Below are positions 9,821 to 30,267 of a stretch of 37,332 nucleotides of DNA, piece after piece (the stretch's first letter is position 1; the number at the start of each line of letters is the position of its first letter). The stretch is from a virus, in the IMG/VR virus record IMGVR_UViG_3300025030_000272, positions 1-37,332 of that record, one strand, 5' to 3'. A program made the translations under genes and the position numbers. A model generated the notes under the pieces. That model saw nothing but the letters and a program-made list of their open reading frames with translations. It did not search any database and was not told where the DNA came from.

Positions 9821-9868
9821 GTCGGATAGCCGTTTCGTCGGGTTCTTAAAAACTAAAAAGAACCGAAA

Positions 9869-9880
9869 ATGGCTGTAGCT
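9869..9880 (+). CDS. Major capsid protein, exon 1
   Basis: Only four codons (M-A-V-A) lie before the intron; read straight on, the frame stops at TAA 9881-9883. A hairpin (GTTCTT/AAGAAC) sits just upstream of the ATG. The exon ends in T9880, which forms the U-G pair of the intron P1 helix. Joining it to 10560 gives M-A-V-A-N-T-I-T-Y-E-T-L, a normal start for this type of capsid protein. Confidence 0.8.
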
Positions 9881-10559
9881 TAACGATATAGGCTACATTA
9901 AATCTCTTCTAATTGACTTGGAAGCCCAGAGATGGGTAACAGGGCGGAAGGCGAAAGCCGCCGTGAACGACTGAACGAAGGGACTCGCCTAAGGACTATA
10001 CAATATCTAATAAGTCCCCAAAGCGAGATGCGACAGTCTGCACTCTACGAATAATCTTTGACAACTTAATCTAGCTTCTTGAAATGGGATGTGATAGTAT
10101 TTGCTTATGAATAGCAAATGGAGAAACCATTTAAGCGAAGGTCAGAGGCGAGCTTGGAAAGAGGGCAGAAGAAAAATACATCCAAATACTCTCAATAATC
10201 TCAAGACTCTGAATAAAGGCAAATTTGGGACAAATCATCCTGCTGGAGAAGCGAAACATCCGGCATGGAAAGGTGACAATGTGGGATATTCTGCTTTGCA
10301 TAGTTGGGTGAGAAGGCGTAAGAGCAAGCCGGATACTTGCGAACATTGCGGAAAATCTGGTTTTAAGGGAACACAAATTCACTGGGCAAGTAAAAGCCGC
10401 AAATACAAAAGAGATTTGAACGATTGGATACGGCTTTGTGCGAAATGCCATTCCATATATGATGAAAATTTTCCTCCTCCGAGGAGAGCTAGATTGAGCT
10501 GAAGGTAGAGAGAGAAACTCGAAGAAGTTTTTCCCCGCAAAAAGCGGAGTAACAAAAGG
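9881..10559 (+). other. Group I self-splicing intron in the capsid gene
   Basis: The core helices can be drawn. P1 is GTAGCTT (9875-9881) with AGGCTAC (9890-9896), with a U-G pair at the 5' splice site. P3 is TCTCTTC (9903-9909) with GAAGGGA (9977-9983). P4 is CTTG with CAGG. P5 is CCCA-GAGA-TGGG (9925-9936). P6/P6a is GGC-GGAA-GGC-GAAA-GCC-GCC. P7 is GACTG (9969-9973) with CAGTC (10034-10038). P8 is CTCGC/GCGAG plus GGACT/AGTCC. The intron ends in G10559, as group I introns do. An HNH gene fills the region after P7. Splicing restores the capsid frame exactly. Confidence 0.88.
10107..10502 (+). CDS. Intron-encoded HNH homing endonuclease
   Basis: This 131-residue protein lies in the P9 side of the intron. 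Such enzymes cut intronless alleles so that the intron is copied in. The N-terminal region (SEGQRRAWKEGRRK, GEAKHPAWKGD) looks like DNA-contact motifs of phage HNH proteins. The HNH core has CEHCGKSG, then the His-Trp (IHWAS), KYKRDLNDWIRLCAKCH and YDE. The ATG at 10107 is preferred over TTG 10101. Its stop is 57 bases before the 3' splice site, leaving room for P9 hairpins (AAACT/AGTTT and CCGC/GCGG). Confidence 0.85.
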   Translation: MNSKWRNHLSEGQRRAWKEGRRKIHPNTLNNLKTLNKGKFGTNHPAGEAKHPAWKGDNVGYSALHSWVRRRKSKPDTCEHCGKSGFKGTQIHWASKSRKYKRDLNDWIRLCAKCHSIYDENFPPPRRARLS

Positions 10560-11414
10560 AATACAATCACCTATGAGACACTTTATGAAGATGTCTTACA
10601 GGATAGGCTAGACCATCCAACCACTTGGAAGGAGATGTGCGATGTTGCTTATAGCAACACTAAACTCGTTTCATCTTCTTATATGTCCACCACTCCTTCG
10701 GTGCAAAGCGTATCGAGAGGAACGGGACATTCCATGCAGACTTTCGTGGAAACGGCGGAAACGCTGGATATTGCGACTGGACGCGACCTTGGTCTCTTTG
10801 TGGACTGGGCTGATTTGGCGCAATCTCCGTGGACAAAACCTGCGGAACTGTTTGACCGAATCGGGGCTTTGCTCAATGAGTATATTGAGTCGGCAGTCCT
10901 CGCCAGGCACACAAGTTGGACTAACATTGACGGAGCTTCCATCGGTGAAGCGGCGGGGAATATCACCGTTTCCGCGCAAAACATTGACGATATAATCCGA
11001 GCAACCAGGCGGGAAATCCGCGAGAACAACGGCAATATGTTCATGAACCAAAATGGAGTCGGCTTTGTTTGGAGAGCCGCCGATTTTGAATTTCTTGAAG
11101 CTTTTGCCCAGGCAAACGGATTTGTGGGTGCGGACGAGGCTTTGAAAAAGGGATTGGTGGAGGGAATTCACTATCTCGGCTCCGACCACTATTGGTCGAA
11201 CGACCACACCGCGAACCATGTATTCGCGGGAGTAAAGAAGATTGAGAGGCTCGGTATTTTGAAAGGCACTTACGGGAAAGCTCATACGATTGAGTTTCCA
11301 GCGGGTGATTCAAATACCTATCTTTCAGGAGTTTCTTTCTACTCCAGAGTGGATATTGGTCATCTCACGCCCACGGCTCACGTAGGGCTGGTGTTTGACG
11401 TAAACGTTGCATAA
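10560..11414 (+). CDS. Major capsid protein, exon 2
   Basis: This frame is open from the splice junction with no start codon of its own at the junction (A-A-T-A-C-A-A-T-C). The internal ATG at 10635 would lose the first 25 residues, which are a typical capsid N-arm (YETLYEDVLQDRLDHPTTWK). The spliced protein has 288 residues, the size of compact HK97-fold capsid proteins. It includes a long helix (QNIDDIIRATRREIRENNG) suited to the spine helix and a C-terminal beta segment. Adjacent scaffold and adaptor genes support the call. Confidence 0.88.
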   Translation, partial: NTITYETLYEDVLQDRLDHPTTWKEMCDVAYSNTKLVSSSYMSTTPSVQSVSRGTGHSMQTFVETAETLDIATGRDLGLFVDWADLAQSPWTKPAELFDRIGALLNEYIESAVLARHTSWTNIDGASIGEAAGNITVSAQNIDDIIRATRREIRENNGNMFMNQNGVGFVWRAADFEFLEAFAQANGFVGADEALKKGLVEGIHYLGSDHYWSNDHTANHVFAGVKKIERLGILKGTYGKAHTIEFPAGDSNTYLSGVSFYSRVDIGHLTPTAHVGLVFDVNVA

Positions 11415-25698: not shown

Positions 25699-26352
25699 AT
25701 GGTAATCGTTTCAAAATTCATTAAGGTTAATTTCACTACAGGACGGAACGAGCAAGGACAATTTATTAAAGGTTTTAGTCCTCCTAGTGAATGGTTTACA
25801 AATAGAATCGCTTGGAATAAGGGTATTTCTCCTTCACTAGAATCTATAAAAAAGATGGTTGGAGTTCGTAAAAAGAAAGGTAATTATGTTGCTTGGAATA
25901 AAGGATTAAAAGGAGGCACAAGTTGGAATAAAGGAAAACATTTTTCTGAAGAATCTAAAAGAAAAATGAGTGAAGGACATAAAAACTCAAATTATGTTCA
26001 TTCTTTAGAAACCCGTAAAAAAATGAGTGAATCTAAAAAAGGCGGGAAAGCACCATTTTGGAGAGGAGGTATTACACCTATAAATCACATAATAAGACAA
26101 TCTTTAGAGTATCGTTTATGGCGTGAAGCAGTGTTCGCAAGAGATAATTATATTTGCCAAAAATGTGGACAGCTAGGAGGAAATTTAGAAGCCGACCACA
26201 TAAAAAGATTTTCAGAATATCCCGAACTTCGTTTTGCGATAGATAATGGCCAGACTTTATGTAAAGCTTGTCATAAAACAACTGATACTTGGGGCACAAA
26301 AGGACTTAAAGGGAGACAATATCATTATGTCAATGAATATGCAACAGATTAG
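25699..26352 (+). CDS. Free-standing HNH homing endonuclease with NUMOD3-like repeats
   Basis: This 217-residue protein has repeated DNA-contact motifs in the first half (AWNKGI, AWNKGL, SWNKGK; FSEESKRKMSEGHK and SLETRKKMSESKKG), as in NUMOD3-bearing homing enzymes. An HNH core follows at about 150-205 (CQKCGQLGGNLEADHIKRF, then NGQTLCKACHKTT). Such enzymes cut cognate genomes next to themselves and spread by repair. It overlaps the amidase gene by 26 bases, with no intron signs at its edges. Confidence 0.9.
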   Translation: MVIVSKFIKVNFTTGRNEQGQFIKGFSPPSEWFTNRIAWNKGISPSLESIKKMVGVRKKKGNYVAWNKGLKGGTSWNKGKHFSEESKRKMSEGHKNSNYVHSLETRKKMSESKKGGKAPFWRGGITPINHIIRQSLEYRLWREAVFARDNYICQKCGQLGGNLEADHIKRFSEYPELRFAIDNGQTLCKACHKTTDTWGTKGLKGRQYHYVNEYATD

Positions 26353-27235
26353 AAGTCCAAATTTTTCGTTTAGAGAAGGATATAAGCCAGAAATTTGCGT
26401 GATACATATAACAGAAGGTAATAGAAAAAGCGTAATTAGCGAATTTTCTAGTTTTTCAACGCAGAAGTCCTCGCATTATTTGGTTTGTAAAGATGGTGAG
26501 ATAATCCAGTTTGTTCCGGAACTTTTATCGGCTTGGACGCAGGGAATAGTGAATAATCCTACTAATGAAATAGTAATACAACATACAAAATCTAGAATTA
26601 ACATCAACAACATTTCTATTTCCATAGAACACGAAGGCTACGCTAATCAGCCCTTAACCCCCGTTCAATACGAAACTTCCGCAAAACTTATTTTAGACAT
26701 CTGCCAGAGAAACAATATTCCTTTGGACTGCGGGCATATTGTAAAGCACAACGAAATAAACAATTGGAAAACCTGCCCCGGTATAATAAATATGGATTAT
26801 TTGATACTGCGGGCGAAAGAGCTACAAAACCCCCCCATCTCCCTCATTCCACCTGAAAACGCTTTTCAGATAAGTTTGCTAAAACGCATACTTGAACTTT
26901 ATCAAAAACTGTTGGCATTACTTCAACAGGAAAAGACGCTGGGCGCGGCCCGAAATTGGCGATGGCCGAAAGTCCGACGAGAACACCTTAATAATTTTCC
27001 TATGTGCGCCGTTTGCGGAGGCATAGACAAAATTGAAGTTCATCATATCAAGCCTTTTTACAGCAATCCCGAACTAGAACTTTTAGAAAGCAATCTTTTA
27101 ACTTTATGCGAATCGGGAAAGAATGGAATTGTCTGCCATCGGGCCATCGGGCATCTTGGTTCATATCAAAGCATAAATAAAGACGTGATAGTTGACGCAG
27201 GATGGTGGAAAGAGAAAATTGTAAATCGCCCTTAA
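26327..27235 (+). CDS. Endolysin: T7-type amidase fused to an HNH nuclease domain
   Basis: This 302-residue protein has an N-terminal N-acetylmuramoyl-L-alanine amidase (about 20-165), which cuts the peptide from glycan in peptidoglycan. H27 (VIHIT), H141 and C150 (KTCPG) match zinc ligands, and Y51 and K148 match the catalytic pair of T7 lysozyme. After a helical linker (about 176-205) comes an HNH domain: C227-x2-C230, H239-H240 (EVHHIKPF), N256, C261, C270-H271 and a RP end. The latter resembles stand-alone phage HNH proteins. ATG 26327 is chosen; longer frames run into the upstream gene. The fusion is unusual. Confidence 0.88.
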   Translation: MSMNMQQIRSPNFSFREGYKPEICVIHITEGNRKSVISEFSSFSTQKSSHYLVCKDGEIIQFVPELLSAWTQGIVNNPTNEIVIQHTKSRININNISISIEHEGYANQPLTPVQYETSAKLILDICQRNNIPLDCGHIVKHNEINNWKTCPGIINMDYLILRAKELQNPPISLIPPENAFQISLLKRILELYQKLLALLQQEKTLGAARNWRWPKVRREHLNNFPMCAVCGGIDKIEVHHIKPFYSNPELELLESNLLTLCESGKNGIVCHRAIGHLGSYQSINKDVIVDAGWWKEKIVNRP

Positions 27236-29505: not shown

Positions 29506-29535
29506 TTGACAAGTGTTTCCCGATTAAGTTTTAAT
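29506..29535 (+). promoter_or_regulatory. Promoter of the early region
   Basis: TTGACA (29506-29511), 18 bases, TTTAAT (29530-29535). A further TTGACT/TTGACA pair (29642-29659) precedes the gene start at 29677. The 273-base gap before 29677 holds these and the leftward promoter, plus DnaA-box-like ATATCCACA (29586) and TTATCCCCT (29634). Confidence 0.55.
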
Positions 29536-29676
29536 TTTTTCGCAACAATTTTTCTCATTATTCGCACGAGGTTCGCTTACAGACGATATCCACAGGTTTG
29601 TTTTGACCCTTTTATCTTATTTGATATTTTGACTTATCCCCTTGACTATTATATTGACATAACCTACTCTAAAATT

Positions 29677-30267
29677 ATGGACTTAACTACCCAACGGAAA
29701 CTGAAAATAATTGAGTCAGTCAAGCAGGGCTTAACTTATCGTGAAATAGGGAAATTATACAATATCTCTCGCCAGCGCGTTCATCAGATTGCTACCGGTT
29801 ATAAATCCCCTGCTAGTTATATACCATATTGGAAAAAAATTGGTTTAGCAACGGAAGAACAATGGTTGCAACTTCAAAAAGAAAAGTTAAAGAAAAGAGC
29901 GATACTTATACAGACCCAGCAAGCAATTTTAGAAAGAAAAAAACTTAAAGAAATAGAAAGAGAAAATGGGATAAGGGCGGATTTGCACGGAATAGATAAT
30001 AAGAAATTTCAAGGCAGAGATTTGGTGAGGGAGGCCATAAGAAAACGAGACAATTATACTTGTCAAATATGCGGTAAAAAATGGAAACGAGGCAAAAGAA
30101 GATTAGATATTCATCATTTAGATGGGTTATGTGGAAAAAAATCACAGGCGTATGATAAAGCAGGAGATATTACTGGTCTCATTACTTTATGTCATAAATG
30201 CCACCTAAATCTTGACGAAAATCGTAAAAAGATGTCTATCGCGAGGTATAAAAAGTTATCCACTTGA
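29677..30267 (+). CDS. HTH-HNH protein (homing endonuclease or regulator)
   Basis: This 196-residue protein begins with a helix-turn-helix (GLTYREIGKLYNISRQRVHQ, about 16-38), has a Lys-rich helical linker (about 65-95), and an HNH domain at about 115-190: CQICGKKWKRGKRRLDIHHL, then LITLCHKCHLNLDE. It is probably a free-standing homing enzyme that uses the HTH for target choice. ATG 29677 is taken because upstream codons of the open frame overlap promoters and encode nothing domain-like. Confidence 0.85.
   Translation: MDLTTQRKLKIIESVKQGLTYREIGKLYNISRQRVHQIATGYKSPASYIPYWKKIGLATEEQWLQLQKEKLKKRAILIQTQQAILERKKLKEIERENGIRADLHGIDNKKFQGRDLVREAIRKRDNYTCQICGKKWKRGKRRLDIHHLDGLCGKKSQAYDKAGDITGLITLCHKCHLNLDENRKKMSIARYKKLST

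Follow-up and report, generated by a model that had tools for sequence, protein, structure and literature searches.

Organization of the locus

The window, i.e. the whole stretch of viral DNA that was analysed (37,332 nt), carries a major capsid gene that is split after its fourth codon by a group I intron with an HNH gene (Table 1). As the original prediction had it, the gene opens with ATG GCT GTA GCT (ATGGCTGTAGCT), meets an in-frame TAA immediately 3' at 9881-9883, and resumes exactly at 10560, from where the frame stays open through its stop codon.

Table 1 Features assigned to the split capsid gene and its intron
Feature	Position	Strand	Basis or remark
Exon 1, major capsid gene, ATGGCTGTAGCT (MAVA)	9869-9880	+	runs on into exon 2 in intronless relatives
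Exon 2, major capsid gene, 284 aa (288 aa once spliced)	10560-11414	+	
Group I intron, 679 nt; first codon in-frame TAA, last base G	9881-10559	+	relatives' junction; core covariation
P1, 9874-9880 UGUAGCU (exon) with 9891-9897 GGCUACA; splice-site U-G	9874-9897	+	
P3, 9903-9909 with 9977-9983; P4, P5 and P6 inside	9903-9983	+	
P4, P5, P6	9917-9920/9940-9943; 9924-9927/9934-9937; 9944-9947/9961-9964 (within P3)	+	
P7, 9967-9973 with 10034-10039; bulged C9968	9967-10039	+	
P7 guanosine-site pair	G9969-C10038	+	
P8	9984-9987/10024-10027	+	
P9 stem, 10043-10048 with 10505-10510; HNH gene in loop	10043-10510	+	read from sequence
HNH homing-endonuclease candidate, 133 aa from TTG; ATG at 10107	10101-10502	+	phrog_8446, PF01844

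A search with exon 2 returned 34 viral contigs, one being the phage's own and the others 66-82% identical. More than 20 of the 34 lack an insertion at the start and read continuously through M-x-x-[A/S]-NTITYETLYEDV or a close variant. As these intronless relatives read through, the boundaries 9880/10560 are set by comparison, beyond folding alone, and the junction predicted from them agrees to the base. The alignment also finds the N-terminus conserved, and splicing would be required to make it.

The designation as major capsid gene was borne out by several lines of evidence. Around it lie a terminase (2859), a portal candidate of 595 aa (5378), a candidate scaffold gene (9215) and an SU10-type adaptor (11486), a gene order that supports the assignment, and phrog_267 (major head) was matched by 22 of the 33 capsid homologues. 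An AlphaFold model based on a deeper alignment reached a pLDDT of 82.5, and its best Foldseek matches were phage capsids, including HK97 (PDB) and 'Major capsid protein Gp5' (BFVD); an earlier model from a shallow alignment (pLDDT 37) was discarded. A profile search of PDB sequences gave no match for the capsid, nor did a tblastn search against isolate phages. On the basis of gene order, phrog_267 and the structural modelling, we identify the product of the split gene as an HK97-fold major head protein.

A capsid exon 2 of 100% identity with the same intron occurs in LBYG01000028.1 (L155), which belongs to the Parcubacteria bacterium MAG GW2011_GWB1_40_14; Parcubacteria are thus a possible host, a lead that comes from binning only.

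Structure and covariation of the intron core

The predicted P1 places a U9880-G9891 pair at the 5' splice site, and the last base of the intron is G10559. The outermost pair of P1 is A-U in two relatives (L011 and L014) and U-A in the window, a compensatory change. For the core, 34 homologous introns were collected by means of a pattern confined to intron sequence (the P3 region) and aligned, and the P3-P8 pairs were counted. The structure, including the P3/P7 pseudoknot, accounts for 97.5% paired cells, and 20 of the 31 pairs have changed on both sides. Double-sided changes amount to 168, compared with 47 +/- 7 after shuffling, and the covariation score is 0.488 versus 0.177 +/- 0.010 for shuffled alignments and at most 0.133 for slid partners, so that all six core helices are supported by covariation in the 34 sequences. 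The G-C pair of P7 is invariant (34/34), and the flanking pair covaries as A-U, G-C and U-A across the bulge; a bulged base beside an invariant G-C is what is expected for the guanosine site. A P10 pairing was not identified in the window intron. The full core that had been proposed (P1 with its U-G, P3 to P8, terminal G) is therefore present and covaries among its homologues, and sequence comparison confirms 9881-10559 as a group I intron splitting the major capsid gene.

A covariance model built from the 34 cores gave a single match in the window, at 9899-10044, with 102 bits, a score that holds by construction as the window is among the rows of the model. More informative is that no second intron of the capsid class was found in the window with this model, despite three other HNH-type genes. 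The Rfam search for RF00028 that had been proposed as a check turned out differently, with no group I intron match in the window at the gathering threshold or at E up to 10, and nothing in the relatives under the same settings. This negative result carries no weight because two introns of T4, td and nrdB, likewise escape the same search at the gathering threshold (L158, T4 136000-146000). A negative Rfam result is consequently not grounds for rejecting phage group I introns, and the introns described here form a set in capsid genes that the Rfam model fails to report.

Distribution and homing

With a second intron-only pattern, taken from P7-P3', at least 61 introns were found, at least 56 of them with a usable exon fragment, and grouping at 90% identity left at least 44 clusters among the matches listed. 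Major-head genes of three families hold 29 of these 44 non-redundant introns among the matches listed (21 clusters in the phrog_1357 group, 4 in phrog_283/P22 coat and 4 in the window's own group), with the remaining clusters among the matches listed including portal, tape measure and ribonucleotide reductase genes. The starting set behind both patterns was enriched in capsid introns, and the shares of host genes hold among the matches listed. Among those matches, capsid genes are the commonest home of this intron class. The view that a capsid gene is an unusual home did not survive this count, and precedents in phage capsids exist (PMC3706429, PMC7886860). The class also splits a P22-type coat gene in an environmental phage (MW202674, L337) and a ribonucleotide reductase gene in Roseobacter phage CRP-118 (OR420741, L336), both of which are annotated as two CDSs; introns of the capsid class can thus lead annotation to divide one gene into two.

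Introns were present, by our reading, in 12 of the 80 contigs kept for comparison. In the capsid genes of this phage group, introns lie before the codons N-T (site A) in the window, L011, L014, L205, L234, L237/L238/L251, L247/L249 and L239/L256, after ACC-T in L023/L025/L026, L188 and L212, after ACG-AT in L217, after AGG-CT in L028, and near codon 190 in L032 and L212, the last of which has two introns within one capsid gene. A tree of the cores, in which most forks are weak, separates the site-A introns from the other capsid introns and requires capsid genes to have been entered at least twice. From these sequences, site A is an intron hotspot at which the capsid start has been colonised repeatedly in distant phages. 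In L023/L025/L026, L182 and L183, the expected capsid start shows ATT or ATC and no visible ATG, GTG or TTG, which would mean that translation begins at a non-standard codon or that a further intron lies upstream.

The HNH frame matches phrog_8446 (E 9e-7) and, slightly short of the Pfam cut-off, PF01844 (E 1e-3). With the close pair L234/L237 set aside, site-A introns are 77-91% identical, while the capsids of those loci share 26-51%; L237 and L239 have 91% of the intron in common and capsids that are only remotely related. Near-identical introns in such diverged capsids indicate that the introns before N-T have spread horizontally, probably by homing, in line with what the HNH gene had been taken to mean. 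The position of this gene varies: it occupies P9 in the window, L028, L032 and L212, P6 in L011 and L014, and the P1 loop in L239, and it lies directly upstream of exon 1 in L237 and L205, an arrangement reminiscent of collaborative homing with its free-standing endonucleases (PMC3984707). Elsewhere in the window, an N-acetylmuramoyl-L-alanine amidase (Amidase_2, 26246-27235) carries an HNH-like domain as a C-terminal fusion, and two HNH genes (25699-26352 and 29506-30267) carry, one each, NUMOD3 motifs and an N-terminal helix-turn-helix; the core covariance model found no intron of the capsid class near these two genes.

Splicing and the capsid start codon

Taken together, the major capsid gene is almost certainly interrupted behind its fourth codon by a group I intron that is mobile and carries a homing gene of the HNH type. 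With the junction, the covarying core, the in-frame stop, the capsid identity and the same-site spread in diverged capsids read from sequence, we infer catalysis, splicing efficiency, DNA cleavage and a competition of P1 with the initiating ribosome as follows. The ribozyme core would fold in the pre-mRNA, a guanosine bound at the P7 site would cut after U9880, and the freed exon 1 would then attack after G10559, joining MAVA to NTITYETLYEDV and giving a capsid protein of 288 residues. Translation of unspliced RNA would be confined to MAVA by the stop at the first intron codon. The HNH enzyme would cut intronless capsid alleles near GCT|AAYAC, and repair would copy the intron in.

P1 of the window intron starts 2 nt past the AUG, a position inside the footprint of an initiating ribosome. 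Five relatives (L234, L237, L205, L249 and L239) have AUGGCU as their whole exon 1, and in these it is AUGGCU itself that P1 pairs with. A P1 on or beside the start codon suggests that splicing comes before translation; splicing thus likely precedes translation initiation of the capsid, and capsid expression would, we infer, depend on it. Efficient splicing of T4 introns is reported to need translation of exon 1 (PMC3073962), an aid that could hardly operate when the exon is two to four codons long.

These features would also fit a broader view, which we entertain tentatively and consider unlikely, of a group I lineage specialised for phage capsids at the translation start, with P1 set against the start codon, a splicing-first order and possibly a timer. 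If true, capsid synthesis would be obligatorily splicing-first, and splicing would be able to time late expression. That the intron serves in addition as a control element, its P1 masking or competing with the start codon so that splicing gates and times capsid synthesis, is distinctly improbable in our judgement. The pairing of P1 at or near the AUG speaks for such a role, as does the in-frame stop that forms the first codon of all eight site-A introns compared. However, group I introns as a rule have an in-frame stop close to the splice site (PMC3073962), both intronless relatives and introns elsewhere in the capsid gene are common, and a sensor domain was looked for and none was found.

Just 5' of the capsid start, a short hairpin (9841-9864) recurs in most relatives, and a Shine-Dalgarno sequence is not obvious there or in the relatives' 5' UTRs. 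Among 34 UTRs, folding gave a mean z of -2.5, with z < -2 in 22; the hairpin of the window itself (z -0.7) is not significant alone, though the family is. It could be a translational control element.

An intron that is still present yet degenerate, no longer splicing or moving, is very unlikely: its P8 loop is unusually long, longer than in the relatives, and its activity is a prediction, but every core helix pairs in the window, the capsid gene is intact and essential, and the HNH frame is open. Translation of the capsid from an internal ATG at 10635, with the upstream region as a leader only, could draw on the ATG-started frame 10635-11414, yet the 25 residues upstream are conserved in frame, together with the start codon, in intronless relatives, leaving this reading scarcely credible. 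Translational bypassing, an intein or a group II intron, for which no supporting point was found, were rejected as next to impossible given the immediate in-frame stop, the further stops after it and the complete, covarying group I core with its terminal G.

Comparison with known systems

Introns in phage capsid genes are already known from mycobacteriophage LittleE (PMC3706429) and crAss-like phages (PMC7886860). Like the window, LittleE has a major capsid gene with an intron, probably of group I, that bears a homing-endonuclease gene; splicing in LittleE was demonstrated by RT-PCR and protein sequencing (PMC3706429). The LittleE intron lies past the capsid processing site and has a LAGLIDADG-like ORF on the opposite strand (PMC3706429), while the window intron follows codon 4 and has an HNH ORF within P9 that is encoded on the same strand. 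The crAss-like phages, which are likewise uncultured, also have group I introns in their major capsid genes, and a single gene can hold several; these are, however, large gut phages whose introns were recognised from endonuclease domains (PMC7886860), whereas the class described here has a core defined by covariation and recurs at the start-codon site. The td and nrdB introns of T4 likewise belong to group I, harbour endonuclease genes and show an in-frame stop by the 5' splice site (PMC3073962, PMC2988022), but follow a long translated exon 1 that is reported to help splicing, in contrast to the four codons of the window and the two of some relatives. By analogy, the window intron might work like the c-di-GMP allosteric group I ribozyme of Clostridioides difficile, in which splicing near the gene start decides ribosome loading (PMC3984707). 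That ribozyme occupies a 5' UTR, together with the aptamer of a riboswitch (PMC3984707), whereas the window intron lies inside the coding sequence, and an aptamer was not found in it. Compared with these systems, the newer points are that the start-codon site has been used time and again and that P1 pairs with the start in relatives.
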